From contig NZ_JAUSUW010000013.1 of the NCBI RefSeq assembly GCF_030814435.1, positions 1 through 64,000 on the forward strand: a stretch of DNA of 64,000 nucleotides, given 5' to 3'. Of the stretch, positions 34,540 through 51,538 are shown one piece after another; the first letter of the stretch is position 1, and each line of letters starts with the position of its first letter. The notes beneath the pieces were generated by a model. It had not been told where the DNA came from. It did no database searches and saw only the letters and a list, made by a program, of their open reading frames with translations. Both the position numbers and the translations under genes were made by a program. The DNA is from Peteryoungia aggregata LMG 23059. Lineage in GTDB: Bacteria; Pseudomonadota; Alphaproteobacteria; Rhizobiales; Rhizobiaceae.

Positions 34540-36789
34540 ATGATGTGCACTGCACTGCCTGCAATCATTGCGGGCCTTTCTGGTGTTTTTCTGCTTTGGC
34601 TGCCGATCAGCCTTCAGGCGCAACTGGTCCTGAGTCTCACGATACTCGGACTCATGTTCATTTTCATGATGCGCCCGCAGAACAAGACGTTCCGCCTGAT
34701 GACATTCGTGTTCTCCGCAGTCCTAGCGTTGCGCTACGCTTTCTGGCGCACGACGGAGACGCTGCCGGACATCAACGAGCCGCTGAACTTCATCCCCGGC
34801 ATCATCCTTTACGCGGCGGAAATGTACTGCCTCGTGATGCTTGCAATCAATTTCTTCATCGTCGCAGATCCGCTGCAGCGCAGGCCTGCACCTCGCATGC
34901 CCGACGCCGAGAAGCCCACCGTCGACGTCTTCGTGCCGTCCTACAACGAATCCGCAGATCTGCTGGCTCTCACTCTGGCAGCAGCCAAGTCGATGAATTA
35001 TCCGGCCGACAAGCTCACGGTGTACCTGCTGGATGACGGCGGGACGGACGCCAAGTGCAGTCAGGCGGATCCGCGGGCCGCCCTTGCTGCCCGCCGTCGC
35101 CGTGAAGAATTGCAGGCGCTCTCCGCCGCCCTCGGCGTGCGTTATCACGCCCGTGCCGAAAACGCGCATGCAAAGGCCGGCAATCTGAACGCCGGGCTGG
35201 CGATCTCAACGGGCGAACTCGTGGTCGTGTTTGATGCCGACCACGCCCCCGTGCGTGAATTCCTCAACGAAACGGTCGGTTATTTTGCCAAGGATGAGAA
35301 GCTCTTCCTCGTCCAGACACCGCACTACTTCCTGAACCCCGATCCGCTTGAGAAGAACCTCCAGACGTTCGGCCGCATGCCGTCAGAGAACGAGATGTTC
35401 TACTCCGTCGTCCAGCGGGGCCTCGACAAGTGGAACGCCTCCTTCTTCTGCGGGTCGGCAGCTGTTCTGCGCCGCAAGGCGCTCAAGGAGACCGACGGTT
35501 TCTCTGGCCAGTCGATCACCGAGGACTGCGAGAGCGCCCTCGCACTGCATTGCCGCGGCTGGCACAGCATCTATGTCGACAAGCCACTGATCGCCGGACT
35601 GCAGCCGGAAACCCTCGTCTCCTTCATCGGCCAGCGGGTTCGCTGGGCGCAGGGCATGCTGCAGATCCTGACCCTCAACCGCCCCTTCCTCCAACGCGGC
35701 CTGACCACCGCGCAGCGCATCTGCTATGCGGGCACGAACCTGTTCTGGCTCTTCCCCTTGACCCGGCTGACCTTCATGTTCTCGCCGTTGCTGTACATCT
35801 TCTTTTCGCTGCAGATTTTCGAGGCCAACATCACCGAGTTCATCTGCTATTCGGTGACCTATCTGATCTCCTCCTTTGCCATGCAGAGCTATCTTTTCGG
35901 TCGTGTGCGTTGGCCCTGGGTTTCCGAACTCTATGAATATGTGCAGTCGGTCATGCTGTTCGGCGCGATCATCAGCGTCGTGCGCAACCCGCGCAAGCCG
36001 ACCTTCAACGTCACCTCGAAGGGGCAGACCCTTGACGAGAGCAAGCTTTCGCCGCTGGCGCGCCCCTACTTTCTGATCTTCTTCCTGCTGTTCGCCGCGA
36101 CCTGCTATGCCATCTGGCGCTATGCGACCGAGGCGATGCCATCAGAACTGCTGCTGATCGTCGCTGGCTGGAACATCATCAATATGGGCATCGCCGGTGC
36201 CGCGCTCGGCTCGGTATCGGAACGGCGCGAGCGGCGACGCAATCAGCGCCTCAACGTCCGCCGTCATGCGATCCTGCATGTCGATCGTGCCGCACACGCC
36301 GTCATCGTCGGCGACGTCTCAAGCGGCGGCCTGGCTCTGCAGTTCATCGACGGCAAGCCGGTCGACGGCATCGACAAGGGACAGGAAGCCATGGTCGAAA
36401 TCCGTCGCAATGGGCGCAGCATGCAAGTGCCGCTGGTCTGCCGCAGCGTCCTTCGCCGCAACGATGAAACGAGCTTCGGCTTTGCTTTCGCCGAACGGAC
36501 GCCGGAGACATTCATCGCCATAGCCGAAATGATGTATTGCGAGCAGCAGCCTCTGCAGGACCGTTGGAACAAGGTTCAGAAACACAAAGGCTTCTTCACG
36601 GGAACCCTCCGCTTCGCCGTCTGGACGGTGACCGAGACGCTGCGTGCCTTCAGTTACGCCCTGCGGCTGATCCGCGAAACGTCGGAAGTCTCGCATCCCG
36701 ATGCACCGATGGTGATCCGCCCTGCTACGACCTGCGACGACCCGGCCGTCTCCCAGCCGTCTTCCCTGCGAGGACCAGCCTATGCTTAA
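34540..36789 (+). CDS. bcsA: Cellulose synthase catalytic subunit 1 (PilZ-containing)
   Basis: The 749-residue inner-membrane GT2 glycosyltransferase polymerises UDP-glucose into beta-1,4-glucan. Two to four N-terminal membrane helices precede the catalytic domain, which shows DDGGTD (about residue 164), DADHAP (232), TEDCE (327) and QRVRW (365). Membrane helices and the gating loop FNVTSKG follow. The C-terminal PilZ domain keeps both c-di-GMP motifs: R570-x3-R574 and DVSSGG (from 592). A cytoplasmic tail of about 100 residues ends the protein. ATG 34540 has GGGG 8 bases upstream; GTG 34519 would add 7 residues. It heads the bcsA-bcsB-TPR-bcsN operon. Confidence 0.93.
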   Translation: MMCTALPAIIAGLSGVFLLWLPISLQAQLVLSLTILGLMFIFMMRPQNKTFRLMTFVFSAVLALRYAFWRTTETLPDINEPLNFIPGIILYAAEMYCLVMLAINFFIVADPLQRRPAPRMPDAEKPTVDVFVPSYNESADLLALTLAAAKSMNYPADKLTVYLLDDGGTDAKCSQADPRAALAARRRREELQALSAALGVRYHARAENAHAKAGNLNAGLAISTGELVVVFDADHAPVREFLNETVGYFAKDEKLFLVQTPHYFLNPDPLEKNLQTFGRMPSENEMFYSVVQRGLDKWNASFFCGSAAVLRRKALKETDGFSGQSITEDCESALALHCRGWHSIYVDKPLIAGLQPETLVSFIGQRVRWAQGMLQILTLNRPFLQRGLTTAQRICYAGTNLFWLFPLTRLTFMFSPLLYIFFSLQIFEANITEFICYSVTYLISSFAMQSYLFGRVRWPWVSELYEYVQSVMLFGAIISVVRNPRKPTFNVTSKGQTLDESKLSPLARPYFLIFFLLFAATCYAIWRYATEAMPSELLLIVAGWNIINMGIAGAALGSVSERRERRRNQRLNVRRHAILHVDRAAHAVIVGDVSSGGLALQFIDGKPVDGIDKGQEAMVEIRRNGRSMQVPLVCRSVLRRNDETSFGFAFAERTPETFIAIAEMMYCEQQPLQDRWNKVQKHKGFFTGTLRFAVWTVTETLRAFSYALRLIRETSEVSHPDAPMVIRPATTCDDPAVSQPSSLRGPAYA

Positions 36790-39088
36790 GAGAGATCTCA
36801 GCTGTTTCCTGTGCGGCGTTGCGGCACTCCTGGTAAGCGTCCAGGCACGCCCGACGATTGCCGCAGGCCTCGCCCCTGCCGAACTGGTGGCGGCAACGCC
36901 TCCCGCCGCCTCCACGCATGCTTCCGCCGGCAGCCGTCGCACTCTCCCCTTCCGTCAGTCAGCAGGGGACATGCGACTGGAGGGCGAGGATGCCGCGCGC
37001 GAGCTGAGCTTTCATCTGTCACCGGATCAGGTTGCCGGAGGTGGTGCTGTGCGTCTGAGTTACCTCAACGCGGTCTCGGTACTGCCAGACGACGCCGTTC
37101 TCGATGTCGAATTGAACGGAGAGCCCCTTGAGACGCTGCCCATCCGCTCGCCGAACGGGCCGATGACGCATGACCTGCCGGTTGCGGCGGCGAAGCTCGT
37201 GCCGGGCTGGAACACGGTTCGAATCCGGGCACGCCAGCATCATCGCATCGATTGCAGTGTCGATGCGAGCTACGAACTCTGGACCCAGATTGACCCGCTG
37301 GTCAGCGGCTTCGTCACCACGGTGGAACCAAAGGACGGTGATCTTGCGAGCCTTCTCTCGGTGGGGCGCAACGGGGACGGGGCGACAGAGATCCGGCTGA
37401 TCGCAAGCCCCGAGACGTCCCAGGCGACCGTTCGCGATAGCCTTTCCGTCGTGCAGACACTGGCGCTGGTACTGGGACGAAGCGACCTCGCCGTGACGGT
37501 CGGCGCGGAGGAAGGCCTGGGCCCTGGAATCGATCTGTATGTCGGCGATCCCAGCCGCATGGATCTCCCGCAATCTGCACGCGACACGCTCGCCGGCGCG
37601 CCACGCGGCCTTTTTGTCCGCCAGAATAACGGCGGACGCCTCGCCCTTACAATGCGTGCATCCAATACCAGCGAATTGCAGTCGCTTCTGCTGGCCGCAG
37701 TCAATGGCCCTCTGCTACCCCTGATCCGGGCGAACAGGGCGCAGGCCGAAGGATCAGCAATAGACGGTGCAACGCCGGCCACTCATGCTCTCTCGGATGT
37801 GGGATACCGAACGGCCCCCTTTGCCGGACGCCTCTTCCAGACCAGCTTCACCGTGATCATGCCGTCGGATTTCTATCCCGGCGACTACGCCACCGTCGAC
37901 CTGCATCTGAACGCGGCCACGGCACCGGGGCTTTCGCCCGGGACCCAGTTGCTCGTACGTGTCAACGAGCGTGCCGTTGCCACGCAGGTGCTCTACAATC
38001 CGGAAGGCATGACCCTGAAGGACAAGCCTCTGGAACTGCCGCTGCGCTCGTTCCATCCGGGCGTCAATCATGTCCGCATCCTCGCCGAGCTTCCCACGGC
38101 GGCTGACAAGGCCTGCGATCCCTCCACCCGGGACGAAGCACGCTCTCGCTTTCTCATGCTTCAGGAAACGACGGTCACCATACCACCCCTCGCCAGAGCC
38201 GGACGCCTGCCGGACCTTGCAGCCTTTGCCGGCACGTCCTTTCCCTTCAAGGGCTCGACTGGCTTCGATGTCTTTGTCGATGCAGCGACGCCGTCGCGAC
38301 TGGGATCTGCGCTCACCTTGCTTACGCGCATGGCAATCTCCGCAGGCCATCCCTTGCCGGCCGAAATCAGGATTGGCCGCCCGGATCCGCGTGCGCCGAC
38401 TGACGCTCTCGTCATCACGGCCAGCGGAGACATGCCCGAGAACGCGTCGCTCGAAGGTCGCAAGGGCGAGCGGTTGCAACCATTCATCACCGACGCATTG
38501 ACGACAGCATCGGTAGCCGGGCAATCCGAAGACAGCCGCCGCCTGTCGGACTCGGAGGCCTTGTTGAGTGCATTCCAGGTCGAGACGCGACTTGAGGAGG
38601 ATCAGCGCTCCCTCAAAAGCCGTGCGACGAGCTGGTTTGCCGAGGCCTCCACAACCGTCAACCGCTGGCTCAGCTACAAGGAGATCGGGCGCGACGACAT
38701 CCATGTTGATTCCCGTGACCGGATGATCAGCGTCAGACAAGTGCGGGCGCCCGAAAGCGACGCCGTTTGGACGATCGTTGCCGCAAGTGACGAGACCTCG
38801 CTCGCCTCGGGTATGAGCACCCTCACCGGACCTGCGACATGGATGTCGCTGGAGGGCGGGGAAGCGATCATTCGACATTCGGATAGCAAGCTCGTGACGC
38901 TCCAGCCGGACGCCTACAGCTTCTTCCCCATCACCGATACAAGCCCCGCCAATCTGAGACGCCTCGCAGCCGCCTGGCTGTCCGATAACTTCGTTGTCTA
39001 TGTCGCGCTCGTCGTCATCCTGATGGGCGGGTTTGGCTGGTGGGTCGGATACATCGTGCCGCGCAAGGGCGTGAGGACAGTCGAATGA
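36782..39088 (+). CDS. bcsB: Cellulose synthase periplasmic subunit 1
   Basis: The 768-residue BcsB family protein guides the nascent glucan across the periplasm. It has an N-terminal signal peptide (FLCGVAALLVSVQARPTIAA). The body has the duplicated carbohydrate-binding and flavodoxin-like domain plan: DVELNGEPLETLPI and DCSVDASYELWTQIDP in the first half, DFYPGDYATVDLHLNA in the second. A C-terminal membrane anchor (FVVYVALVVILMGGFGWWVGYIV) would pack against BcsA. ATG 36782 overlaps the bcsA end by 8 bases. The same DCSV-x-A-x-YELWTQIDP motif occurs in the second BcsB. Confidence 0.9.
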   Translation: MLKRDLSCFLCGVAALLVSVQARPTIAAGLAPAELVAATPPAASTHASAGSRRTLPFRQSAGDMRLEGEDAARELSFHLSPDQVAGGGAVRLSYLNAVSVLPDDAVLDVELNGEPLETLPIRSPNGPMTHDLPVAAAKLVPGWNTVRIRARQHHRIDCSVDASYELWTQIDPLVSGFVTTVEPKDGDLASLLSVGRNGDGATEIRLIASPETSQATVRDSLSVVQTLALVLGRSDLAVTVGAEEGLGPGIDLYVGDPSRMDLPQSARDTLAGAPRGLFVRQNNGGRLALTMRASNTSELQSLLLAAVNGPLLPLIRANRAQAEGSAIDGATPATHALSDVGYRTAPFAGRLFQTSFTVIMPSDFYPGDYATVDLHLNAATAPGLSPGTQLLVRVNERAVATQVLYNPEGMTLKDKPLELPLRSFHPGVNHVRILAELPTAADKACDPSTRDEARSRFLMLQETTVTIPPLARAGRLPDLAAFAGTSFPFKGSTGFDVFVDAATPSRLGSALTLLTRMAISAGHPLPAEIRIGRPDPRAPTDALVITASGDMPENASLEGRKGERLQPFITDALTTASVAGQSEDSRRLSDSEALLSAFQVETRLEEDQRSLKSRATSWFAEASTTVNRWLSYKEIGRDDIHVDSRDRMISVRQVRAPESDAVWTIVAASDETSLASGMSTLTGPATWMSLEGGEAIIRHSDSKLVTLQPDAYSFFPITDTSPANLRRLAAAWLSDNFVVYVALVVILMGGFGWWVGYIVPRKGVRTVE

Positions 39089-41136
39089 TGAGAAGCACTT
39101 TCGCAGCAGCACTCTGTGCAAGCACTATCCTGGCCACACTCCTGCTGGCAGTGCCATCCCGGGCGACACCGCTGGTCGCGCCGCGGGCTGCCTCGACCAT
39201 GGCGGCGCCGACGCCGGACCTTCCGGCACAACCTGCAACGCCACCGACAGCACCCAAGCCCGACACCGTCGATCTCGCGGCTCTCTACTACTATGCCAGG
39301 AGTGGTGAAAGCGCGCGCGTCGAAGCAGAGACGCGCCGCCTGGAACTGAAGTTCCCGGGTTTCACCATCCCGACCGATCTCTATGCGCCCGAAAATGGCG
39401 ATCAGGTCGACGAGACCACACTGTGGCAACTCTACGAGCGTGACGACTATGCCGGGATCGATCAGGAGATCAGTCGCATCGCAGCGGCCAATCCGGGATG
39501 GGAACCGTCGGCTGATTTTCGGGCGAAGCTCGAGCGCCGCAAGATGCGTCTGGCGATGACGACTGCACATACAGCAAGGGATTTCGCGACAGTCATCCGC
39601 GAGGGTGCCAATCTCGATGCTACGCAGGAAGCCGAGATCGATCTGCTCTGGATGCTCATCGACGCCTACAGGGCAAACGGGATGCATGAACCGCTGACAA
39701 TGCTGTATCGCGGCATCCTGTTTCGTCCACCGGAGAAAACTTTATCCGACGACCTGATCCTGACAACCTTGCGCAAGGCGATGCAGGATGTTCCGGCGGC
39801 CCAGTTGCGCGAGGCCATTCAGATTCTCTCCTCGAAGCCCGATCTGGCGCTCGCTATGACGGCTCTGCGTCTCGATCTGATGCGGCGAGAGATCGGCGAC
39901 TACGTTGCCGACGCCTCAGGCATGTCGATCCCGACGGCCGAGACCATTTCGGCGATCCGGCAGGTGGCCGAGATGGAGCGGAACCCGAAGGATCTGGGAC
40001 TGATGGGCTGGTATGCGCTGAAAAGCGACAAGCCGGAGGAAGCAGCCCGCTGGTTCGAGCAGATGATGCAGCACGGAGCAAACGCAGAAGCCGTGCGCGG
40101 CCTCGCCGTGAGCCTGGGACATCGCGGCAAGGAGGACCAAGCCTTCACCTTCGTGTCCTCGCATCTCGAACTGCTGCAGGACGACGATGCGTTCCTGCTC
40201 GATCAGCTCTCCTATCCCTTCCGCAGCGAGGTCAGGACGGATCTCGAGGACCGCGTTGTCACGCGCTATTCCGAAGCAATTCAGAAGACGGAATCCGCAG
40301 ACCATGCACGCCTGCTCGGCTGGTACGCCTACAATTCACGCCAGTTCGAGCCGGCCAGGGCCTGGTTCACAAGGGCCTTCGAATGGAAGCCCGAAGCTGA
40401 TAGCCTGAAGGGGCTCGTCCTGTCTGCGACGCGCCTCGGCCAGAAGGCTGAGGTCAGCGACCTGCGCGAAAAACATGCCGGTGCCTACGCCGCCGTCTTC
40501 GATGAGATCCGGTCAGCGCTCGAACCGAAGGGCAAGGGTGGCAAGCCGGTGAGCGCCCCCACGGGCGTTCAGCCACGTTACGCCTCGAGCCTGCAGAAGA
40601 AGGACTATGGCGCCTGCATCTCCGAACTGCGGACGCTCGAAGCGAAGGCAGCCTTGCGTCCGGATGCTGTCGTGATCAAGGGTTGGTGCCTGCTCGGCCT
40701 GAACCATCTGGCGGAGGCACGGCAGGCCTTCATGCAAGGCCTTGCAGACGGTGGCGGCAAGTCAGACGATGCCGCCTACGGGCTCGGGCTCACATTGCTT
40801 CGCTCAAATCTCACCGATGATGCAGAAGCCCTGCTGATGCGGCAGAACCTGACGCCATTGCGGGAACGGGAACTGCGGGCAGAGATGCTGTGGCAGAAGG
40901 CACGCGCCGCCTTCGATCGCAAACAGTACCGCCAGACGCTCGATGCCCTCAACGCGCGTCTGCAGATCATGCCGGAGCCGGTTGGCATCAGCCAGATGCG
41001 CGCCTGGAGCCACTACCACCTCGGCAATCTCGCCCAGTCTCGCGCAATTTTTGCGCAACTCAACCAGGTGGTGGCGGACCCTGCGAACAGCCGGGGCATT
41101 GCAGCGATCAACGAACGCATGGGGATCACACGATGA
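39085..41136 (+). CDS. Periplasmic TPR protein of cellulose operon 1 (BcsK-like?)
   Basis: The 683-residue protein has a signal peptide (AAALCASTILATLLLAVPSRA), a Pro/Ala-rich linker, then an all-helical body with TPR-like repeats, for example MGWYALKSDKPEEAARWFEQ, LGWYAYNSRQFEPARAWFT and KGWCLLGLNHLAEARQAFMQ. No C-terminal beta-barrel region is visible, so it is not a full BcsC exporter. It resembles the TPR proteins called BcsK in alphaproteobacterial cellulose loci, but I am not certain of that name. Its N-terminal domain is clearly paralogous to the protein at 49625-51538. ATG 39085 overlaps the bcsB stop. Confidence 0.75.
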   Translation: MMRSTFAAALCASTILATLLLAVPSRATPLVAPRAASTMAAPTPDLPAQPATPPTAPKPDTVDLAALYYYARSGESARVEAETRRLELKFPGFTIPTDLYAPENGDQVDETTLWQLYERDDYAGIDQEISRIAAANPGWEPSADFRAKLERRKMRLAMTTAHTARDFATVIREGANLDATQEAEIDLLWMLIDAYRANGMHEPLTMLYRGILFRPPEKTLSDDLILTTLRKAMQDVPAAQLREAIQILSSKPDLALAMTALRLDLMRREIGDYVADASGMSIPTAETISAIRQVAEMERNPKDLGLMGWYALKSDKPEEAARWFEQMMQHGANAEAVRGLAVSLGHRGKEDQAFTFVSSHLELLQDDDAFLLDQLSYPFRSEVRTDLEDRVVTRYSEAIQKTESADHARLLGWYAYNSRQFEPARAWFTRAFEWKPEADSLKGLVLSATRLGQKAEVSDLREKHAGAYAAVFDEIRSALEPKGKGGKPVSAPTGVQPRYASSLQKKDYGACISELRTLEAKAALRPDAVVIKGWCLLGLNHLAEARQAFMQGLADGGGKSDDAAYGLGLTLLRSNLTDDAEALLMRQNLTPLRERELRAEMLWQKARAAFDRKQYRQTLDALNARLQIMPEPVGISQMRAWSHYHLGNLAQSRAIFAQLNQVVADPANSRGIAAINERMGITR

Positions 41137-41921
41137 AAGCCTCCACCATCAGCCTCGTGGCTCTGCTTGCACTCACGGGCTGCAACACCGTCGAGGATCC
41201 TTACCTGGATGGCATCGCGTCGGCAGTTCCCGCAAGCGCGACAGGCAATCGCGAACTTCCCCCCCATCTAGCTCTGGCCACGCTGACGACGCTGGGAGAA
41301 ACACCGATCAGCGTCCGCCAGACGACGGTCGGCGGCGTCACCAGCCAGGTCATCGCCTATCGCAGCACAACAACAATCCCGGGCGAGAACAGGCTGACGG
41401 TTGCCACCGGCACAGCGGCAACGGCGGCGTTCCGGCGCGGACCAAGCCGTGCCGAGCTTGCACGGGAACTCGCATCCGAGTTTCCCGGGATCCGGATGAG
41501 CCTCGACCCGGTCGTGCGCCAAAACGGCTACGGCCCCTACGGGGTCGCGACAGGCAGGGTGAGCGAACGCGGAGCCTGCGTCTACGCCTGGCAGACGATT
41601 GACAAGGCTGCCAGGACGACTGGCGAGGAGGCCTCGGCAATCCGCCTTCGCTACTGCCACCCCGCCCTGGGAACGGAGGTGCTTGCCGGTCTGCTCTCGG
41701 GATTATCCTTTGGCGGCGCCAATGTGGCAGCTATCGCGACCGCCACGACATCCTATGCCTATGCAACCGGTGCGCCTGTAGCCGATCCCGTTCCCGTAGC
41801 GGCCACGATGAAGGCTGAGATCAGTGCAGGGACACCGGCCGCAAGAGAGGCTGCAGACACCTCCACATCCCACGAAACGTCAGGCACGAAGCCATCCGTC
41901 ACGATACCGATGCCGGACTGA
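41133..41921 (+). CDS. bcsN: BcsN-like cellulose biosynthesis lipoprotein
   Basis: The 262-residue protein has a short lipoprotein signal with lipobox LTGC (Cys 17), so it is anchored to a membrane facing the periplasm. The body fits the BcsN family of alphaproteobacterial cellulose operons: ISVRQTTVGGVTSQVIAYRS, PGENRLTV and a conserved CVYAWQTI followed by RLRYC. Two cysteines could pair. A Gly/Ala-rich stretch (SGLSFGGANVAAIAT) precedes a disordered tail. It is last in operon 1 and overlaps the TPR gene by 4 bases. Operon 2 has no copy. The molecular role is unknown. Confidence 0.8.
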   Translation: MKASTISLVALLALTGCNTVEDPYLDGIASAVPASATGNRELPPHLALATLTTLGETPISVRQTTVGGVTSQVIAYRSTTTIPGENRLTVATGTAATAAFRRGPSRAELARELASEFPGIRMSLDPVVRQNGYGPYGVATGRVSERGACVYAWQTIDKAARTTGEEASAIRLRYCHPALGTEVLAGLLSGLSFGGANVAAIATATTSYAYATGAPVADPVPVAATMKAEISAGTPAAREAADTSTSHETSGTKPSVTIPMPD

Positions 41922-41964
41922 CCCATCCGGCTTTGCATCCTTTCGACAGGGGAAAGACCACCGG

Positions 41965-42312
41965 TCAGCGAAGAAGCCGTTGCAGCCGGGGCCGAACGCG
42001 CAGGAAACCCCGGTAGGCGGCTTCGAACGCGGGTGTGGCGGGCGCCCAGCCGGCCAGCAGGCCGAGCGGACGCAGCAGGGGTATGGCGCGCCACATTGCC
42101 GCAAATGCCTGCGCGCCCGACAGGAGCGTCCCCTTTTCGTCTGCGTGAAACCGGGACAGGATTTCCGCCCGGTCGATCGGGCACCCCTGGGAAAGGTCGC
42201 AGGCATCGACGAACCGGATCGCGCCGCGCCGGTCGAGGCGTTTCATCAGGGCGATCTCGCGCTGGCACAGGGGACAATTGCTATCGAACCAGATGGTGAC
42301 CTGAGGATTCAT
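41965..42312 (-). CDS. DUF393 (DCC-family) thioredoxin-like protein
   Basis: The 115-residue protein of the DCC/DUF393 family shows the signature WFDSNCPLCQREI with a thioredoxin-type Cys-x2-Cys pair near residues 13-16. RFVDACDLSQG follows, then a C-terminal helical part (MWRAIPLLRPLGLLAGW). Members are predicted disulfide oxidoreductases or simple binding proteins. ATG 42312 has GAGAA upstream. It lies between the two cellulose operons on the opposite strand. Confidence 0.85.
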   Translation of the reverse strand: MNPQVTIWFDSNCPLCQREIALMKRLDRRGAIRFVDACDLSQGCPIDRAEILSRFHADEKGTLLSGAQAFAAMWRAIPLLRPLGLLAGWAPATPAFEAAYRGFLRVRPRLQRLLR

Positions 42313-42418
42313 GGCTTTTCTCGATGTCGCATGTGGACCTGACTCCAATATGGGGTCAGAAATCCTGTATGGACAGTGCGGCCCCATGCCGCGAGCCGGA
42401 CGGTCCCACCCTCACGCC

Positions 42419-43492
42419 TTAGGACGCGATGGCCTTTGCATCCCGCCCGACGACCGCCAGCTGGGACAGGAGCTGGTTTCGCCATTGATCCAGTTTCGGA
42501 GAAGACGCGTCGTCGGCGACCAGGCCCCCGTTCGCCTCCTGAATGGCACCGTCCCGATAGGCTGTCGGGGAGCACCCGAACCGGGTCATGAACAGTTGTC
42601 GCATGTTGGTCTGGCTACCCAACCCGCTCAAGCGCGCAATGTCCTTGATCTTCCGCTCACCGGCTTTGAGCATTTCGCAGGCGTAGCTCAAGCGGACAGA
42701 GAGCACGAATTCACCCACTGTCTGACCCGTTTTCTGTTTAAACGCCCGAGACAGAGTCTTCTCGCTCATGGCCACCATATCAGCCAGCTTTCCGACGCTC
42801 AGATCAGCGGATGGATTTGCCATTACCCATTCCTGAACACGCTCCACCGGGCTGCCAGAATCGAAACTGGGAAAAACTGGGCGACTGCCGAAACGCATCT
42901 CCGCACTGAGCAGGCGCGCACCAAATCGACGCGCGACTTCTCCGGCGACGGACCGACCAAGGTCCTCCTCGATCAGCGAGAGCGACAGGGCAAGGCCCGC
43001 AGAACTGCCACGTGCACTCCAGATCTTGCCGCTCTTGTGAACATCCGAATGCGGCTCGACGATAGTCTGCGAGCAAAGTGTGGTCAGGCGCGCCTGGACG
43101 TCCCCCTCCGCCACCACGGTGTGACCGCGAGTAAGCCCCGCCGCAGCGGCGAATAAAATCCCGTTGCCAAAGGTTGCGATGCGCCGGACGGCAGGCGCCC
43201 GCCTGGCAAGGAATTCAATGATCCGCAGATCGTGATCCTGCAAAGTGACGAATGCGCCGTCAGGGATGACCAGGGTATCAACCTCTGATGGTGCATTATT
43301 CAAATTGTGAACTGCACTGAAACGGATCCACGGCTCATCCGGCTGAACGGCTTCATAGCCTGCGGCGCATGTCGTGAGCACATAGGAACGCCCATCGGCC
43401 ACCTCGCAGGCATGCCGCAGACTCTCCATTACGGACGCCAGTTCCAACATTCCGCAATTGCTGCGCAGCACAATCATGACTGTACGCGTCAT
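42419..43492 (-). CDS. AraC-family regulator with GATase1/DJ-1-like sensor (GlxA type)
   Basis: The 357-residue regulator has an N-terminal class I glutamine-amidotransferase-like domain (about residues 1-190). The usual nucleophile-elbow region is GNGILFAAAAGL, with no Cys at the turn, so it probably binds rather than hydrolyses a ligand. The C-terminal AraC DNA-binding domain (about 215-320) has both helix-turn-helices, including VGKLADMVAMSEKTLSRAFKQ and KDIARLSGLGSQTNMRQLF. ATG 43492 has GAGG about 10 bases upstream. It is divergent from cellulose operon 2, so that operon is a plausible target, though this is only positional. Confidence 0.85.
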   Translation of the reverse strand: MTRTVMIVLRSNCGMLELASVMESLRHACEVADGRSYVLTTCAAGYEAVQPDEPWIRFSAVHNLNNAPSEVDTLVIPDGAFVTLQDHDLRIIEFLARRAPAVRRIATFGNGILFAAAAGLTRGHTVVAEGDVQARLTTLCSQTIVEPHSDVHKSGKIWSARGSSAGLALSLSLIEEDLGRSVAGEVARRFGARLLSAEMRFGSRPVFPSFDSGSPVERVQEWVMANPSADLSVGKLADMVAMSEKTLSRAFKQKTGQTVGEFVLSVRLSYACEMLKAGERKIKDIARLSGLGSQTNMRQLFMTRFGCSPTAYRDGAIQEANGGLVADDASSPKLDQWRNQLLSQLAVVGRDAKAIAS

Positions 43493-44011
43493 CGAGCAGA
43501 CACCTCGACCTAGGTCTTCCATGTAAACGATTGTTAACGAATAAGAAAATTAATTATAAAAAAACAGTAAATCAATTTTCAGAACAGTCATACTGAATCA
43601 AATCGGCACATAAGATTAATTCATACGTATAGCTGCCGATTCATCGCGCAGAACATTGCTTAATAGAATGAATTCTGCGTTTTATTTATCGTTTTTGGAA
43701 CAATATCAATTCACAACATGAACCTTTTTTGGGCGTATATTTGGCCTATTTGACTAAAATTCTATGTTGCACCGCAACTATCTCGACAATCTCCGACAGG
43801 ATTCGGACAACTGACGAAGCGGCCTCGCCGGGGGCCTTCACATTCTCCCCGATCCATACCTAACGTTAACCCGAGATTAACCTCGCCACGGCCTGCGGGG
43901 CCTGTCGAGTTTCTGGTGCATGCACTCCAAGGATGTATTTGCTGGGATAGGACGGTGCCCATGGCGCCTGGCGGGGCAATCGACGATCGAACTCATGAGG
44001 AGTCCAAAGTC
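43493..44011. other. AT-rich control region upstream of cellulose operon 2
   Basis: The stretch 43525-43770 is strikingly AT-rich compared with its surroundings and holds no gene. It includes A tracts, the 8-bp palindrome ATACGTAT (about 43623-43630) and TTGACT near 43750, a possible -35 box. Such regions upstream of rhizobial polysaccharide genes often bind silencers of the MucR or H-NS kind. An open frame runs into this region from bcsA2 (to 43916), but no ribosome-binding site supports a start there. Confidence 0.55.
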
Positions 44012-46243
44012 GTGCGAGAAATAGTTCGCTATGCTGCCTGGCTGGCCATCGTTATCGCGATGTTCCTGCTCGTTGCGCAGCCCGTCGGCCATTCGGCCCG
44101 ATTCAACCTGTCAGTCATCGTCATCGTCATTTTGGCTGCGATCATGCTTCTGAAGCTTGATGGCTTCTGGCGGCATGTGTTCCTCGCGCTGGCGAGTGTC
44201 GTCATCCTCCAGTATGCATACTGGCGCACAACCAGCACGCTGCCACCTGTCGAAGACCTCTATTCCTTCATCCCAGGTATCATCCTCTATGCGGCAGAGA
44301 TGTATTGCATCCTGATGCTCGGCATCAGCCTGTTTGTCGTGGCAGACCCGATCGACAGGCCAAGAGCGCCGCAACTGGATGACGACGAAAGCCCCAATGT
44401 CGATGTCTTCATCCCGACCTATAACGAAGATCGGGAAATCCTGGCCCTGACCGTGGCCGCTGCCAAGGCGATGGATTACCCGGCGGACAAGTTCACCGTC
44501 TACCTGCTCGATGATGGTGGTACGGATCAGAAGCGCAACAGCGACGATCCGGTGGCCGCGGCCAAGGCAACGGAACGCGCCACGATCCTCAAGGATCTGT
44601 GCAGCGACCTCGGCGCCGTTTACATGACACGCGCAGAAAACGTCCACGCAAAGGCCGGCAACCTCAACGCTGCCCTGTGGCGGACGCATGCCGACCTCGT
44701 TGTGGTCTTCGATGCCGACCACGCACCGGAGCGCAACTTCCTGCGGGAAACGGTCGGCCATTTCCTTGAGGACGAACGTCTTTTCCTCGTCCAGACGCCA
44801 CACTTCTTCTCCAACCCGGACCCGATCGAACGCAATCTCGGGACCTTCGGTCGAATGCCATCCGAAAACGAAATGTTCTACGGCAAGATCCAGAAGGGTC
44901 TCGACCGCTGGAACGCGTCGTTCTTCTGCGGCTCGGCCGCAGTGCTGCGCCGCGAAGCCCTGGAAGAGGTGGGTGGTTTCTCCGGCATCACCATCACGGA
45001 GGATTGCGAGACAGCCCTCGAACTCCATGCGCGCGGCTGGAACAGTCTCTATGTGGAAAAACCACTGATCTCGGGCCTGCAGCCGGAAACCTTCGCCAGC
45101 TTCGTCGGGCAGCGCTCTCGCTGGTGCCAGGGCATGGTCCAGATCCTTATGCTGAAGAACCCGCTTTTCAAGCGCGGCCTGTCTCTGCCACAGCGGCTGA
45201 GCTACATTTCCAGCTCGCTCTTCTGGTTCTTCCCCTTCGTGCGTGCGGTCTTCTTCGTCGCGCCCCTGCTCTTCATTCTCTTCGACATGAAGATCTTCGT
45301 CGCATCCTTCGAGGACTTCTTCGCCTACACGATCATGTATCTGATCGTCGGCGAGATGGTGCGCACCTATCTCTATGGCAGCGTCCGCTGGCCATGGATT
45401 TCCGAAATCTACGAGTATGTGCAGTCGGTCTATCTCTTCCAGGCCATTGTCAGCGTGCTGATGAAGCCGAGGAGCCCGACATTCAAGGTCACCGCCAAGG
45501 GCGTGTCGCTGAAGCATGATCGGTTATCAGAGCTGTCTCTGCCGTATTTCATCATCTTCGGCATTTTGAGCTTCACTCTGTTCGTGGCCGCCTATCGCTA
45601 CAACACCGAGCCGGAAATCTCGAGCCTGCTCCTGATCGTTGGGGCCTGGAACTGGATGAACCTGATGATCGCCGGCTGCGCGCTGGGTGTCGTCACCGAA
45701 CGCAGCCAGGATCTCTCCGGCGTGGAACTGCCGCTGCGCACCACTGTCGAACTCCAGTTCGGTGAGACTGTCCTGCGCGGTGCGGTCACCGAGGCTTCAG
45801 CCCAGGGTGCCAAGCTGATTCCGGCACAAGGCTCTGCCCGCAATCTCCGCAAGGGCGAATATGGCCGGCTTCAGCTGCTCAGCGTCTCCTCGAACCTGCT
45901 TGTCACCTCGCTGCCCGTCAGCATCGCGGGTGCCACACCGGGCGAGGATGGGGCAATCAGCCTGCGTTTCGATCCGGAGCCGCACCACTTCCCGATCATT
46001 GCCGAACTCCTGATGCACGACATGTCGGTGGTGCGCGAACAACGTGCGCTGCGCCAGCGCCCGAAAAGCATCATCGCCGGAAGCCTTCGCATCCTCCGTT
46101 GGGCCATTACCTGCCCGCTCGCGGCCATCGGCGTCGCGCTCGGCGGCAAGCCGGACGACAAGGTAGAGCCACAAAGACTGAAACCCCTCGCCGGCGCGGC
46201 TCTGGCCGCTGCCCCGGTCCGTCATCGGGAGGCTGGAGAATGA
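44012..46243 (+). CDS. bcsA: Cellulose synthase catalytic subunit 2 with degenerate PilZ domain
   Basis: The 743-residue GT2 cellulose synthase is strongly similar to the product of 34540-36789. Catalytic motifs are intact: DDGGTD (about residue 167), DADHAP (234), TEDCE (329), QRSRW (367) and the gating-loop FKVTAKG. In the PilZ region the c-di-GMP residues are gone: the arginine pair is replaced by TERSQDLSGVELPLRTTVEL, and D/N-x-S-x2-G is EASAQG (594). The chosen start is GTG 44012, with GAGGAG about 9 bases upstream. It gives the same N-terminal spacing as the first copy. An open frame extends to ATG 43916 without support. Confidence 0.92.
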   Translation: MREIVRYAAWLAIVIAMFLLVAQPVGHSARFNLSVIVIVILAAIMLLKLDGFWRHVFLALASVVILQYAYWRTTSTLPPVEDLYSFIPGIILYAAEMYCILMLGISLFVVADPIDRPRAPQLDDDESPNVDVFIPTYNEDREILALTVAAAKAMDYPADKFTVYLLDDGGTDQKRNSDDPVAAAKATERATILKDLCSDLGAVYMTRAENVHAKAGNLNAALWRTHADLVVVFDADHAPERNFLRETVGHFLEDERLFLVQTPHFFSNPDPIERNLGTFGRMPSENEMFYGKIQKGLDRWNASFFCGSAAVLRREALEEVGGFSGITITEDCETALELHARGWNSLYVEKPLISGLQPETFASFVGQRSRWCQGMVQILMLKNPLFKRGLSLPQRLSYISSSLFWFFPFVRAVFFVAPLLFILFDMKIFVASFEDFFAYTIMYLIVGEMVRTYLYGSVRWPWISEIYEYVQSVYLFQAIVSVLMKPRSPTFKVTAKGVSLKHDRLSELSLPYFIIFGILSFTLFVAAYRYNTEPEISSLLLIVGAWNWMNLMIAGCALGVVTERSQDLSGVELPLRTTVELQFGETVLRGAVTEASAQGAKLIPAQGSARNLRKGEYGRLQLLSVSSNLLVTSLPVSIAGATPGEDGAISLRFDPEPHHFPIIAELLMHDMSVVREQRALRQRPKSIIAGSLRILRWAITCPLAAIGVALGGKPDDKVEPQRLKPLAGAALAAAPVRHREAGE

Positions 46244-48561
46244 TCAGACAACGCGCCATCTGGCTGGCGACGACAGGCCTGCTGCTTGCAGGCTCCCCGT
46301 CGACCGCCGCCACACCCGGTGGATTCATCCTGGCGCCGCAAACTGCGCCCCAGGCTGAAACCAAGGAATACTTTCAGGACGAGAACCAGATCCGTCGCCT
46401 GATCGCAGACAAACGGGACCTCTTCTTCCCCGGCGAAACAGCCAATCGGGAATACCCCTTCGTCGTCTTGCCATCCGAAATGACAGGATCAGCCAAGCTC
46501 ATCCTGACGCTGCAGACGGCGATTTCAGTGGCGCCCGAACGGTCGGCAATGCGCATATTTGTCAACGACCGAGACATCGGAACAGTCAACCTGAAGTCGG
46601 GTGACGCTCATCAGGTCGAGCTTGAGCTCCCGAAGGGGCTGCTGCAACCGGGGTACAATGCCGTAACGGTCTTGCTCGATCAGTCACACCGTGTCGACTG
46701 CTCGGTGGAAGCAACCTACGAGCTCTGGACCCAGATCGATCCCGCCAGCAGCGGTTTCGTCTTCACACGCAATGCCAAGGACGACCCGAGCGACGTCTCC
46801 ACCCTGCTCGCTTATAGCCGCGACGTGAACGGCCATGCCGCCATCAACGGGATGATACCCCGAGGCGCAGCAGGCGAAGACATCAATCGCACGTTTGCGG
46901 TGGTTCAGGTTCTCTCGATACTCGGTCACTTCGACCGCCCCGTCGTGACGGTCGGAAACGAGCACGGCTCTGGCCCCGGGATCGATCTCGTGGTCGGGAC
47001 GTTCGGCACTGTCCGCGACCTGATCGGCGCGACACCCGAACAGGCAGGCGTACAGTTCGACATCGACCCTGCGAGCGGCCGCAGCCGCATGATCGTCGCA
47101 GCCCGAACGGCGGATGAGTTGGCATCGACAATCCGCGATTTCACTCTGCGTGCGCAGACCGAGATGACCGACGGTTCACCCCAGGGCCGCCGTGCACTCG
47201 GCAATCGCCGCGGCCGCCTGCTGGAGTCCGGCAGCGAAAACACGCTCGCCGAGCTGGGTTTTGTCTCGCGCCCCTTCGCCGGCCGCCATTTCGAGCAGTC
47301 GATCACGTTCAGCCTTCCTGCCGATTTCTATCCCGGCGACTATGGAGCCGCCACCTTCAAGCTGAATGCTGAATATGCCGCAGGCCTGTCGCCAAGCGCG
47401 CAGATGGTCGTTCGCGCGAATGGTGACACCGTCGCCAACATCCGGCTCGGCGAAGGTCGCTCCGGCCGCATCGAAGGACAGGTTTTGCCCATCCCGCTCG
47501 ACAAGCTGCGTCCCGGCTACAATGTGATCGAGTTCGAGGCGGAACTGTCCAATGCAGCAGACGCCGTGTGTGATCCAGCCACTCTCGGAAACCCGACGGC
47601 ACGCTTCTTCATCAAGGGCGACAGCACATTGAACATCCCCGCCTTCGCACAGATTGGCCACGCGCCCGATCTGGCGGTCGTGTCTGCCGGCAAGGCAGGC
47701 TTCGGCGGCGGCGATACGGCAACACCACTTTATGTAGAGGGCATGGACAATGACATGCTGGGGGCAGCAGGCAGCTTCCTCGCCAAGATGGCCTATGCCT
47801 CGCGGCAGGTGAGCCTCGTCTCCGTAACCTCCGGCTGGCCGCTCGATCGTCAGGGGCCGTTGCTGGCCTTCGGCAGCTTCTCCGGTTTCTCCAGCCAGCT
47901 CAGGTCCGACCTTGGCATTGATCTTAGCCCGGTCTCCAGCAACCTTGCGCTCTCGCTGGATGAAAATCAGCCAGAATCCCAGGGAGCGCAGGCAGAGCAA
48001 GCCGCACCTGCCCTCTCGGTGGATGGTGCGCAGGTGCAGGCCGACGACGACCGCCCGACTTCGCTGGTCGCGCGGCTCAAAGATGGCCTTGGCGCCATCT
48101 TCGAGGGAACGAAGGTCCGGGTGCAGATCCAGGCTGCGGAACTGGGCCTGATGGATGACCCGACCGTATTGAACAACGATACTGTCTATCAGGTCGCCAA
48201 TGAGGCCGACATGCTCGTTGCACAGCGTCTGGTCAACGACCGGGATGCCTGGACCGTGGTCGCCTTTCGCAATCCCGAAACACTCAGCGAGGGCATGCGA
48301 AGCATGGCGCAGGCGGATGTCTGGGGTCGTCTCGGGGGGGCAGTGAACACCCTGACCCTCGACGGCACCGTTGTCGACCGAAAGATGTCGGCACACGAGC
48401 GTCTTTATGAGACCAAACCGCTCAGCCTTCAGAACGGCCGCCTCATCGTGGCGGGCTGGTTCTCCAACAACGCCCGTGAGTTCACCATCGCCCAGATCCT
48501 GGTAGCCATCCTGCTCGGCGTCTCGACCTACATCGTACTGCGGCAGGGACGCAAATCGTGA
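46240..48561 (+). CDS. bcsB: Cellulose synthase periplasmic subunit 2
   Basis: The 773-residue second BcsB has an N-terminal signal peptide (IWLATTGLLLAGSPSTAAT), then two repeats of carbohydrate-binding and flavodoxin-like domains with MRIFVNDRDIGTVNL, VDCSVEATYELWTQIDP and DFYPGDYGAATFKLNA. A C-terminal membrane helix (FTIAQILVAILLGVSTYIVL) follows. A Glu/Gln/Ala-rich low-complexity loop lies around residues 570-610. The ATG overlaps the bcsA2 stop by 4 bases and the following bcsZ start overlaps its own stop. Confidence 0.9.
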   Translation: MIRQRAIWLATTGLLLAGSPSTAATPGGFILAPQTAPQAETKEYFQDENQIRRLIADKRDLFFPGETANREYPFVVLPSEMTGSAKLILTLQTAISVAPERSAMRIFVNDRDIGTVNLKSGDAHQVELELPKGLLQPGYNAVTVLLDQSHRVDCSVEATYELWTQIDPASSGFVFTRNAKDDPSDVSTLLAYSRDVNGHAAINGMIPRGAAGEDINRTFAVVQVLSILGHFDRPVVTVGNEHGSGPGIDLVVGTFGTVRDLIGATPEQAGVQFDIDPASGRSRMIVAARTADELASTIRDFTLRAQTEMTDGSPQGRRALGNRRGRLLESGSENTLAELGFVSRPFAGRHFEQSITFSLPADFYPGDYGAATFKLNAEYAAGLSPSAQMVVRANGDTVANIRLGEGRSGRIEGQVLPIPLDKLRPGYNVIEFEAELSNAADAVCDPATLGNPTARFFIKGDSTLNIPAFAQIGHAPDLAVVSAGKAGFGGGDTATPLYVEGMDNDMLGAAGSFLAKMAYASRQVSLVSVTSGWPLDRQGPLLAFGSFSGFSSQLRSDLGIDLSPVSSNLALSLDENQPESQGAQAEQAAPALSVDGAQVQADDDRPTSLVARLKDGLGAIFEGTKVRVQIQAAELGLMDDPTVLNNDTVYQVANEADMLVAQRLVNDRDAWTVVAFRNPETLSEGMRSMAQADVWGRLGGAVNTLTLDGTVVDRKMSAHERLYETKPLSLQNGRLIVAGWFSNNAREFTIAQILVAILLGVSTYIVLRQGRKS

Positions 48562-49646
48562 AGATCCGTCTCCACATGTCCGCCTTGGTTCTTGGCGGCG
48601 CCCTGATCGCCGGCGCCGCCACGGCTATGTTGCCGCAGCCACAGGAAAACGTCGCAGCCGACATCGCCGCCGGTGCCTGGCTCTTCTACCAGCACAATTT
48701 CGTCACTGACGAAGGGCGCGTGGTCGACAATCGCGCCGGCGGCATCAGCCATAGCGAAAGCCAGGGTTATGGCATGCTGATGGCCGAGGCGGCTGACGAT
48801 CGCGACAGCTTCGACCGCATATGGTCATGGACACGCGCCAATCTTTTCGTCCGGGATGACGGGCTCGCCGTTTGGCGATGGGATCCATCCCACGCCCCAC
48901 CCGTGACGGATCGCAACAACGCAACCGATGGCGACCTTCTGATTGCATGGGCCCTGATGCGCGCCGGCCAACGCTGGAACGAACCGGATCTCCAGCGCGA
49001 GGCCCGCCGCATCGCCGAAGCGATCGTGACAAGGACGACCATCGACACCGACTACGGCCTCGTCCTGTTGCCGGGTGTGCAGGGTTTTGGCCGCAACGAG
49101 CAATCGGACGGTCCCGTGATCAACATGTCCTATTGGATCTTTCCTGCTCTGGTCGATCTCGGTCGCTTGACGGGCCGCTTCCCGGCAGAAGAGCTGATGG
49201 ACAGCGGCGTTTCCCTGTTGCGGGACGCCCGCTTCGGCCCCGCCAGGTTGCCGGCCGACTGGCTGTCGCTCTCCGGCGACATGCCACGGCCCGCCAGTGG
49301 TTACCCGTCGCAGTTCGGCTACGATGCGATCCGGGTCCCCCTCTACCTCGCCTGGTATTCACGCGACTATCCAGACATTCTGGAAGTTTTTGCCGCGCAT
49401 TGGAAACAGTTCGGCAAGGCGTCGATGTCCGTGGTGGAACTCGCCACTGCGACCCGGCTCTCGCCAATGCCCGACCCCGGCTACCAGGCCGTGGCCGCAC
49501 TCGTCGAATGCAGCCTGGGACGTCGCCCAGACATCACCCAGCTCTCTGACTTCAGCTCCCAAGACTACTACCCCGCCACGCTCCATGTGCTGAGCCTCAT
49601 GGCTATCGCTGAAAGGTACCCCACATGTTTGACCGATTTCCCCTGA
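48558..49646 (+). CDS. bcsZ: Periplasmic endo-1,4-beta-glucanase, GH8
   Basis: The 362-residue glycoside hydrolase family 8 cellulase is of the BcsZ/CelC type. A signal peptide (SALVLGGALIAGAATA) precedes the catalytic (alpha/alpha)6 domain. The general-acid Glu lies in SHSESQGYGMLMA, near residue 67, and the catalytic Asp in NNATDGDLLIAWAL, near 121. Other family residues are seen in NMSYWIFPAL and SQFGYDAIRVPLYLAW. The start is GTG 48558, overlapping the bcsB2 stop by 4 bases. Such enzymes trim or edit nascent cellulose and are needed for normal export. It is the only bcsZ in the two operons. Confidence 0.93.
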   Translation: MKIRLHMSALVLGGALIAGAATAMLPQPQENVAADIAAGAWLFYQHNFVTDEGRVVDNRAGGISHSESQGYGMLMAEAADDRDSFDRIWSWTRANLFVRDDGLAVWRWDPSHAPPVTDRNNATDGDLLIAWALMRAGQRWNEPDLQREARRIAEAIVTRTTIDTDYGLVLLPGVQGFGRNEQSDGPVINMSYWIFPALVDLGRLTGRFPAEELMDSGVSLLRDARFGPARLPADWLSLSGDMPRPASGYPSQFGYDAIRVPLYLAWYSRDYPDILEVFAAHWKQFGKASMSVVELATATRLSPMPDPGYQAVAALVECSLGRRPDITQLSDFSSQDYYPATLHVLSLMAIAERYPTCLTDFP

Positions 49647-51538
49647 AAACAGCCCTGTTTGTCGGTGTCTGCATCTCGATCCCGATCAGCCAGGCAACCG
49701 GTGACAACGCCACGAACTATCCCGCAATGGGGCTGGTTCTGCCCGGCTCCGCCACGTTGTCGAACGCCTCTGCTCCGGCAGGCGGCCAGCCGGCCATGCC
49801 GGTTTTCGATCCGCTGGCCGGAGTAACCACGGCACCTGCCGTTCAAGCCGTCGTGCCAACGACGCTCCCCGCCCCGCAACCCGTGATGCCGGCTGCGCCG
49901 GCACCGGCGCAGGTCGTTCTGCCCGCCCAGTTACCCGTCGCCGTGACACCCGCAACAACGGTGGCCGTACAGCCGACGGCTCCGGTCATTCGCGAGGTTG
50001 CGCCGGGCGAAAACCCCTTCGGACCAACCGCTGCGACCACGGCGAGGAGACCGGCGGCACAGCTGCCGGCGGCCAGCACCCTTCCGCCGGCTGACCTTGC
50101 GCCCTCGAGAGAGAGCGTTGAGCAACAGATCGCCAAGCTCGGTCAGCAGACAGAGCAGCCGGGCGCATCGCCCCGACCGGAAGTCGACGAAACCGCCTTG
50201 CGCTACTATGCGCAGACGCGTGACCTCAAGCGCCTCGGCGCCGAGTTGCGCCGCCTCAAGACGCTCTATCCGGACTGGGACGCGCCGGAAGATCTCTTCG
50301 ATGCTCCGACCAACATCTCGGAACAGCCTCTTTGGGACATCTTCGGCAGCGGAGACTATGTTCGGGTGCGCACCGAGATCGCCCGGTTGCAGAGCGAAAA
50401 CCCAAACTGGAAGCCCAGCCAGGAATTGCTCGACAAGCTTGCGCTTGCCGAAACCCGCCGGCTGATGGAACGCGCTCACGCCCAGCGCAATTGGGGCCAG
50501 GTCGTCACTCTCGCCGAGGCCACGCCGCAACTGATGGTCTGCGCCGAGATGAACACCATGTGGATCACGGCAGAGTCTCTCGCCCAGTCGCGTGACTACG
50601 CCCGAGCCTTCGATCTCTACAAACATATCGTAACCACCTGCGAGGAGCCCAACGAGCGCCTGTCGACGGTCCAGAAGGCCAGCCTTCTCCTTCCTGAAGC
50701 GGGCACACGCTCGCCGGTCGCGCTCGGCAACATCCTTCCTGATGGCACGGGCGAATTCGACAATGTCTCCTTCGACCTTGTCCGCCGCAAGATGGGTCTC
50801 GTCGCCCAGGGCAGCGGACCGGCAAGCGCATTGACGATCGATGAACTGCAACGGTTCAGCGACTTCGTCCAGCGCTCGTTCTCCGCGAATGACGCAGAAC
50901 TCTTCGGCTGGTTCTACTATGGCCAACAGAGTTGGGAGGCATCGTATCACTGGTTCGTCAGCGCAACCCGGATGACCACCAACCCGAAGAGCATTGAGGG
51001 CGTCATCCTCACGCTGCGCAATCTCGATCACCGTGACGAGGCACTCCAGCTCGCCCGGCAATATGCGGCGCAGACACCGGAATTGAAGAAGATCTACATC
51101 GAGCTTGTGTCAGCCGGATTGACGGATCAGGAAACGCCTCTCGCGCTTGACGAAAAGGAACTGAAAACGCTCGAGGGCTATGTCTTCGAACAGAAGTCGG
51201 CATTGGGTGCGCAGGCGCTCGGCTGGCATCGCCTCGAAACCAAGGCGACAAAGGAAGCGGCCCGTCTTTTCCAGCAATCCGTCGAATGGGAAGCCACCGA
51301 AGGCGGCGTGACCGGCCTTGCTGTTGTCGCAGCTCGTGCCAAGAACTGGGGCCGTGTCGCAGCGATCAAGAAGCAGTATGGCGCAAAGTTCGCATCACTC
51401 GACAACGTCAAGGTCTACCGTCCGGCAGCCACACCCAAGACCATCAAGCCGAAACCCCAGGAAAAGCCCAATCTGCTCACCTGGCTCCTGCAGAAGGACA
51501 AGCGCGAGGAGAAGAAGGGCCGTGTCGAAACCGAATAA
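49625..51538 (+). CDS. Periplasmic TPR protein of cellulose operon 2 (paralogue of the operon 1 protein)
   Basis: The 637-residue protein has a signal peptide (KTALFVGVCISIPISQATG) and a Pro/Ala/Val-rich linker of about 150 residues, likely disordered. A helical body follows with TPR-like units such as FGWFYYGQQSWEASYHWFV and LGWHRLETKATKEAARLFQQ. The tail is Lys-rich. Its first helical domain matches the operon 1 TPR protein in LRYYA, E-x-RRL, LWDIF, GDYVRVRTEIARL and NPNWKPS. There is no beta-barrel. It overlaps bcsZ by 22 bases. It probably forms a periplasmic scaffold between the synthase and the outer membrane, by analogy with the TPR part of BcsC. Confidence 0.75.
   Translation: MFDRFPLKTALFVGVCISIPISQATGDNATNYPAMGLVLPGSATLSNASAPAGGQPAMPVFDPLAGVTTAPAVQAVVPTTLPAPQPVMPAAPAPAQVVLPAQLPVAVTPATTVAVQPTAPVIREVAPGENPFGPTAATTARRPAAQLPAASTLPPADLAPSRESVEQQIAKLGQQTEQPGASPRPEVDETALRYYAQTRDLKRLGAELRRLKTLYPDWDAPEDLFDAPTNISEQPLWDIFGSGDYVRVRTEIARLQSENPNWKPSQELLDKLALAETRRLMERAHAQRNWGQVVTLAEATPQLMVCAEMNTMWITAESLAQSRDYARAFDLYKHIVTTCEEPNERLSTVQKASLLLPEAGTRSPVALGNILPDGTGEFDNVSFDLVRRKMGLVAQGSGPASALTIDELQRFSDFVQRSFSANDAELFGWFYYGQQSWEASYHWFVSATRMTTNPKSIEGVILTLRNLDHRDEALQLARQYAAQTPELKKIYIELVSAGLTDQETPLALDEKELKTLEGYVFEQKSALGAQALGWHRLETKATKEAARLFQQSVEWEATEGGVTGLAVVAARAKNWGRVAAIKKQYGAKFASLDNVKVYRPAATPKTIKPKPQEKPNLLTWLLQKDKREEKKGRVETE

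Follow-up and report, generated by a model that had tools for sequence, protein, structure and literature searches.

Cyclic dimeric guanosine monophosphate (c-di-GMP) was discovered through its activation of cellulose synthase, where its textbook receptor is the PilZ domain of the subunit BcsA. Here, we describe two adjacent cellulose synthase (bcs) operons in a 64,000-nucleotide stretch of the Peteryoungia aggregata LMG 23059 genome (contig NZ_JAUSUW010000013.1, positions 1 to 64,000), which we refer to as the window, and focus on the BcsA of the second operon, which lacks the c-di-GMP motifs of the PilZ domain. Operon 1 (bcsA1-bcsB1-bcsK1-bcsN, 34519-41921) and operon 2 (bcsA2-bcsB2-bcsZ-bcsK2, about 43916-51538) are separated by only about 2 kb. 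The host genome (4.83 Mb, 31 contigs) belongs to the Rhizobium rosettiformans group, with Rhizobium rosettiformans W3 and R. rhizophilum 7209-2 among its named near relatives.

Type III bcs operons are defined as those without bcsD, bcsE, and bcsG, and they often have bcsK in place of bcsC (PMC11470070). The window fits this definition: in a search confined to 34519-51538, none of the ten genes matched bcsC, bcsD, bcsE, or bcsG. The two operons share the BcsA, BcsB, BcsZ, BcsK, and BcsN families, overlapping genes, and a cluster without BcsC with the type III operons of Rhizobiales, such as Rhizobium celABC and the N-A-B-Z-K arrangement seen in several loci. They differ from these in that operon 1 has bcsN at its 3' end and no bcsZ, while operon 2 has bcsZ, no bcsN, and a BcsA without c-di-GMP motifs. 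An initial annotation of the window had described two complete operons side by side, with BcsN only in the first and BcsZ only in the second. All eight genes are present as described and in the same place, and BcsN and the glycoside hydrolase family 8 (GH8) protein BcsZ each give the only match of their kind in the whole genome, both inside the window. "Complete" holds for operons of the type III kind with BcsK but not for the BcsC kind.

The initial annotation also considered this division of accessory genes unusual. Published work already covers genomes with two bcs operons, accessory genes that differ between operons, and PilZ residues that vary from one BcsA cluster to another (PMC7112194, PMC4806288, PMC3520766), and two bcs operons with differing accessory genes are thus a known kind of thing. 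The close spacing is the part that stands out; the duplicated bcs operons in one survey, whose definition demands more than 10 kb, are all reported at least 10 kb apart (PMC7112194). Gluconacetobacter hansenii is described as carrying multiple acs synthase operons that differ in their accessory genes (PMC4806288; the word PilZ is absent from its main text), and the bcsN-A-B-K cluster of Shinella zoogloeoides, in which bcsN is named first, is reported without bcsZ, like operon 1 (PMC9012009). What is new here is that a conserved, paired BcsA lineage has lost its c-di-GMP site. Our literature searches, which did not cover subscription papers, turned up no report of a motif-less BcsA lineage, although this is weak evidence of absence.

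Three described synthases bear on this loss. In R. sphaeroides BcsA, c-di-GMP bound at R580/R584 is reported to disrupt an R580-E371 salt bridge by which the gating loop is kept closed (PMC5567048, PMC10374906), and the R580A substitution to render the enzyme constitutive (PMC5567048). BcsA2 shares the predicted fold, catalytic motifs, gating loop, and E371 of this Rhodobacter sphaeroides BcsA-BcsB (PDB 4P00, 5EJ1) but lacks the c-di-GMP-site residues R579, R580, R584, and D609. RiGT2 of Romboutsia ilealis, a glycosyltransferase family 2 (GT2) synthase with a PilZ fold, is described as active without c-di-GMP and yet dependent on its PilZ domain, a likeness that we propose for BcsA2; unlike BcsA2, it keeps the motifs and produces a mixed-linkage glucan, and its identity to C. 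sphaeroides BcsA is about 26% (PMC10374906). BgsA of Sinorhizobium meliloti is, like BcsA2, a rhizobial synthase without PilZ motifs; in contrast to BcsA2, its C-terminus is described as not PilZ-like, yet it binds c-di-GMP, and it makes a mixed-linkage glucan (PMC5567048).

Loss of the c-di-GMP motifs in the BcsA2 lineage

In an alignment that takes its residue numbers from R. sphaeroides BcsA by way of the relative L080, we compared the BcsA2 lineage, represented by one row from each of 29 genomes, with 123 other BcsA rows (distinct sequences, in some cases several from one genome). These counts leave out L110, which is cut at the locus end, the window copy L145, and the distant GT2 enzymes L051_6017, L142, L143, and L144. 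Residue 584 is Arg in 123/123 of the other BcsAs and in 0/29 of the BcsA2 lineage, where it is Glu in 21, Ser in five, and Gln, Asp, or Thr in one each. Similarly, Asp or Asn occupies position 609 in 122 of the 123 others versus two of the 29. Neither full PilZ motif, RxxxR or (D/N)x(S/A)xxG, is present in any of the 29 lineage rows. The other rows have both motifs in 103 cases, the second alone in 18, and the first alone in two (L071, L102); the 18 that fail the strict RxxxR still keep R584 and the D/N motif. In the window, BcsA2 has D/L/E in place of R579/R580/R584 and E in place of D609, while both motifs are found throughout the BcsA1 clade (20/20 rows). Pfam PilZ (PF07238) is found in BcsA1 (1.4e-7), and a search of BcsA2 gave no match at E 0.01.

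The catalytic and gating residues (D179, D246, D248, E342-D343, Q379, R382-W383, and the FxVTxK gating loop) are the same in both groups, and E371 is present in 28 of the 29 lineage rows, with Asp in the remaining one. Thirteen positions separate the lineage from the others, based on 113 of the 123 rows with outgroup rows omitted. Nine of these are in the GT/membrane part and are mostly conservative swaps; the other four (R584, G670, R726, Y730) fall within the PilZ and C-terminal part and are mostly non-conservative.

The PilZ domain of BcsA2 is not decaying, as its predicted fold and purifying selection are kept. AlphaFold predicts six PilZ strands in BcsA2, as in BcsA1, and the best structural match of the BcsA2 model is R. 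sphaeroides BcsA with c-di-GMP (template modeling score 0.90). The ratio of nonsynonymous to synonymous substitution rates (dN/dS) in the PilZ domain is 0.04-0.10 in BcsA2 (four close relatives) versus 0.07-0.10 in BcsA1; these are rough values, with dS near 1 in most pairs, and distant pairs give 0.10-0.41 in BcsA2 and 0.18-0.41 in BcsA1. Relaxed selection on the BcsA2 PilZ domain was not seen, since its close-pair dN/dS is as low as in BcsA1. Altogether, the alignment strongly implies that BcsA2 has lost c-di-GMP binding. The initial annotation suggested that the two operons may act under different signals, and the motif loss, which it had not seen, appears to bear this out.

The motif-less BcsA is paired with a second synthase in 27 of 29 genomes, the exceptions being G036 (R. 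rosettiformans W3) and G244. The PilZ part of the partner BcsA could be read in 26 of these; R584 and D/N609 are intact in all 26 and both strict motifs in 22, the strict RxxxR failing in G108, G193, G211, and G327. In G016, the second BcsA lies in two pieces on separate contigs, and its PilZ part is not among the 26. In our family sample, a second BcsA occurs in seven of eight genomes with the motif-less type, versus nine of 73 genomes with BcsA but without that type, many of whose BcsAs were taken as motif-bearing from about 46-53% identity alone. The corresponding fractions in our genus sample (60 genomes, own genome included) are 12/13 and 2/24. Both comparisons ignore the relatedness of the genomes. 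The host genome encodes 45 GGDEF domains above cut-off.

Proposed control of operon 2 and its alternatives

Based on gene content, motif loss, conservation, fold prediction, and co-occurrence, we consider it fairly probable that operon 1 is c-di-GMP-gated and that operon 2 encodes a paralogue that is no longer gated by c-di-GMP and is set mainly by transcription. The operon 1 synthase, with its intact PilZ domain, would make cellulose when c-di-GMP rises. In the operon 2 synthase, the active site and gating-loop motifs are intact and the c-di-GMP contacts are gone, which would leave it without c-di-GMP gating. BcsA2 keeps E371 but has Leu at 580 in place of its partner Arg; the autoinhibitory E371-R580 salt bridge would therefore not lock the gate, and we infer that BcsA2 is always on. 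Its output, presumably cellulose, would then be set mainly by transcription. Beyond the window, it is possible, though we suggest it only tentatively, that this is an old, selected Rhizobiaceae lineage of ungated, c-di-GMP-independent synthases, a second transcription-controlled machine alongside the c-di-GMP-gated synthase, in which the ligand-free PilZ domain is a structural part of an open gate. If true, the lineage would offer a natural test of what PilZ contributes in the absence of c-di-GMP, what sets the gating loop, and how regulated and unregulated cellulose are kept apart in bacteria, and its synthases might work in hosts or extracts without c-di-GMP.

In the window's subclade, the transcriptional control would probably act via an AraC/FtrA-type regulator gene (42419..43522, reverse strand) that is divergent from bcsA2 (HTH_18, 5e-20; FtrA model 2.1e-33, below its cut-off). 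An AraC-type gene lies upstream of bcsA2 in the window and in 13/13 subclade loci with upstream sequence (14/14 in all), and it accompanies bcsA2 also where the operon sits elsewhere in the genome.

Several observations weigh against the idea of an ungated, transcription-controlled operon 2. No AraC-type gene (bit score >150) was found upstream of the 14 other lineage loci; this excludes it as a general replacement control, and AraC-type control is thus a local proposal for the window's subclade. The AraC-type proteins of L042 and L051 are only 39-40% identical to that of the window. Among the 123 other BcsA rows, 61 have Ala371, so the E371-R580 bridge cannot be general in Rhizobiales as represented in our alignment, and R580 is absent in 65 with R584 kept. 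S611 is kept in 29/29 BcsA2-lineage rows and G614 in 20/29. BgsA is reported to bind c-di-GMP without PilZ motifs (PMC5567048), which makes another site possible.

Some of these points would favor ordinary redundancy, in which both operons respond to c-di-GMP, the second via a different site or a partner protein. The BgsA precedent, the conservation of S611 and, in part, G614, and the retained predicted PilZ fold are all consistent with it. However, neither PilZ motif survives in the lineage, and the change at 584, where every other BcsA has Arg, is mostly a charge reversal to Glu, so we regard redundancy as unlikely. It is very improbable that operon 2 is decaying and makes nothing. The PilZ motifs are lost, the L034 bcsK2 is split in three, and the L197 and L200 clusters gave no bcsZ match; dN/dS is nevertheless well below 1 in both the GT and PilZ domains, and all four genes are open in the window and the other uncut subclade loci. 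We give still less credence to the possibility that the product of operon 2 is some other beta-1,4 polymer, for instance the glucuronan of R. rosettiformans DSM26376, whose glucuronan genes were called unknown in a 2023 paper (PMC10180729). R. rosettiformans W3 (G036; L122, L037), which we do not equate with DSM26376, has only operon 2 among BcsA-type operons. However, the compared active-site motif positions are the same as in other BcsAs, a GH8 gene lies inside operon 2, and the same operon type occurs in other genera.

Origin and distribution of the two operons

The initial annotation proposed that the two operons arose by duplication and then diverged, as their paired proteins share distinctive motifs. 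Our alignments give distant pairs: 48-50% identity for BcsA1/BcsA2, 29% for BcsB1/BcsB2, and 25% for BcsK1/BcsK2 (over 460 aa). BcsA2 is about 46-54% identical to the common rhizobial BcsA types, i.e., about as distant from these as from BcsA1. We built quick trees without bootstrap, using Shimodaira-Hasegawa-like approximate likelihood ratio test (SH-aLRT) supports. In the first BcsA tree (87 rows; 14 of 101 omitted as near-identical or distant), the BcsA1 type (A1, 20 rows) and the BcsA2 type (A2, 22 rows) each form one clade (SH-aLRT 100). A1 first joins three BcsAs from other families of the order (support 89, long branches), and these three, one Roseibium row, A1, and A2 make up a 46-row group (support 90). 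The second BcsA tree (72 rows, PilZ columns removed) keeps both clades, places A1 nearer the common type (support 85), and does not show the 46-row group; we are thus unsure of the deeper branching order, since A1's neighbors differ between the two trees. The BcsB tree recovers the same A1 and A2 clades; in it, the 17 rows that partner motif-less BcsAs form one clade (100), next to those partnering four motif-bearing relatives. In the second BcsA tree, the branch uniting all motif-less BcsAs has support below 80, and the motif-less label needs one change there.

In none of these trees do the trees support recent duplication in place, as A1 and A2 are not each other's closest relatives. Judging from these phylogenies, the operons are members of two different Rhizobiales lineages lying adjacent, not recent tandem duplicates; they may still share an old common ancestor. 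Gene order tracks clade in uncut loci, with A-B-K-N in A1 and A-B-Z-K in A2, while bcsN precedes bcsA in many common-type loci (e.g., N-A-B-Z-K). The nearest motif-intact relatives (L198, L201, L202, L203) also have A-B-Z-K loci, in which bcsN was not matched, and the order therefore probably predates the loss of the PilZ motifs.

In the genus sample, A2 is present in 13 genomes and A1 in 21, with both in 12. The two operons are same-strand neighbors in four of these 12 (the window, G017, G055, G058). In G016 they lie close together in inverted orientation, in G025 and G052 they diverge from each other at a distance of about 20 kb, and in G032 they are 2 Mb apart; in G002, G005, G040, and G053 they are on different contigs. 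A1 occurs without A2 in nine genomes, seven of which (G009, G010, G022, G031, G035, G037, G041) have no further BcsA match above 700 bits. BcsN is present in all seven, and a GH8 match in none. G036 is the sole genome of the 60 with A2 alone and has no BcsN match. At the same place, G041 has operon 1 without operon 2, and G036 the reverse.

This distribution bears on the suggestion of the initial annotation that the operons may share one BcsZ and one BcsN. Because the seven A1-only genomes have no GH8, operon 1 does not need operon 2's BcsZ, and a shared BcsZ is not supported; G036, with operon 2 and no BcsN match, speaks against a shared BcsN. In Shinella, a bcsN, A, B, K cluster without bcsZ is reported to support cellulose-based flocs (PMC9012009). 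Recent tandem duplication followed by a division of labor, with BcsZ and BcsN shared, is therefore the least credible account of the locus: the adjacency in four genomes, the single BcsZ and BcsN in the host genome, and the 46-row tree group could speak for it, but A1 and A2 are separate clades, the operons are not same-strand neighbors in eight of the 12 genomes with both, and each operon occurs without the accessory gene of the other.

Among PLSDB plasmids, every best match to BcsA2 is below 60% identity. For BcsA1, one R. rosettiformans entry matched at 89% identity and four further entries at 60-80%; the latter include, among the matches listed, A. pseudoryzae, R. rhizoryzae, and Shinella sp. 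PSBB067.

Gene parts and the intergenic region

Both catalytic subunits pass as UDP-forming BcsA in TIGR03030 (cut-off 699.1 bits): bcsA1 (34519..36789, forward strand, as are all eight operon genes) with 849.4 bits (1.7e-255) and its RRNQR and DVSSGG motifs intact, and bcsA2 (43916..46243) with 834.6 bits (5.4e-251). The bcsA2 reading frame opens at 43916, and its likely start is GTG at 44012, judging from an upstream GAGGAG and the alignment. The periplasmic subunits bcsB1 (36782..39088; PF03170, 2.8e-39) and bcsB2 (46240..48561; PF03170, 2.7e-36) fall in the A1-type and A2 clades of the BcsB tree, respectively. The bcsK1-like protein (39085..41136) has tetratricopeptide repeat (TPR) matches and follows bcsB, and it gave no outer-membrane porin family match. 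The bcsK2-like protein (49625..51538) gave no Pfam match; it resembles BcsK1 (E 2.5e-35) and is conserved at the operon end. In L034 (isolate R1607_A), the bcsK2 homologue falls into three open pieces, the first starting at 15635 and the last reaching beyond 17162, and is either broken or affected by a sequencing error.

Operon 1 ends with bcsN (41133..41921), a predicted lipoprotein with a visible LTGC lipobox (PF17038, CBP_BcsN, 1.6e-30; 106.4 bits vs cut-off 25.6). The bcsZ gene (48558..49646) encodes a GH8-family endoglucanase by PF01270 (1.8e-53; 182.2 bits vs cut-off 24), with NCBIfam NF008305 at 142.4 bits, below its cut-off of 299. Successive genes overlap by 8, 4, and 4 bases in operon 1 and by 4, 4, and 22 bases in operon 2, in agreement with the 4 to 22 bases initially noted.

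A search for RNA switches gave no Rfam match above gathering score in the window, and a promoter scan was uninformative (four found vs 3.2 expected). The araC-bcsA2 intergenic region (43523..44011) contains a 48-base block at about 43764-43812 that, in a 13-locus alignment, is conserved in 11/13 loci, well above its surroundings. In the window, the block reads as ATG plus 15 codons ending in TGA, which is not so in all relatives, and it has short palindromes inside; it may be a leader open reading frame or a regulator site. Its 16-base core has no other exact copy in the genome, and allowing up to two mismatches gave three genome matches versus four for a reversed control.

Upstream of the operon 2 homologue in L051 (Rhizobium sp. 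SL86), from 6017, there is a third BcsA-like GT2 with 32% identity to BcsA2 and no PilZ motifs. Between the two operons of the window lies a DCC1-like thiol-disulfide oxidoreductase family gene (41965..42387, reverse strand; PF04134, 5.1e-22).

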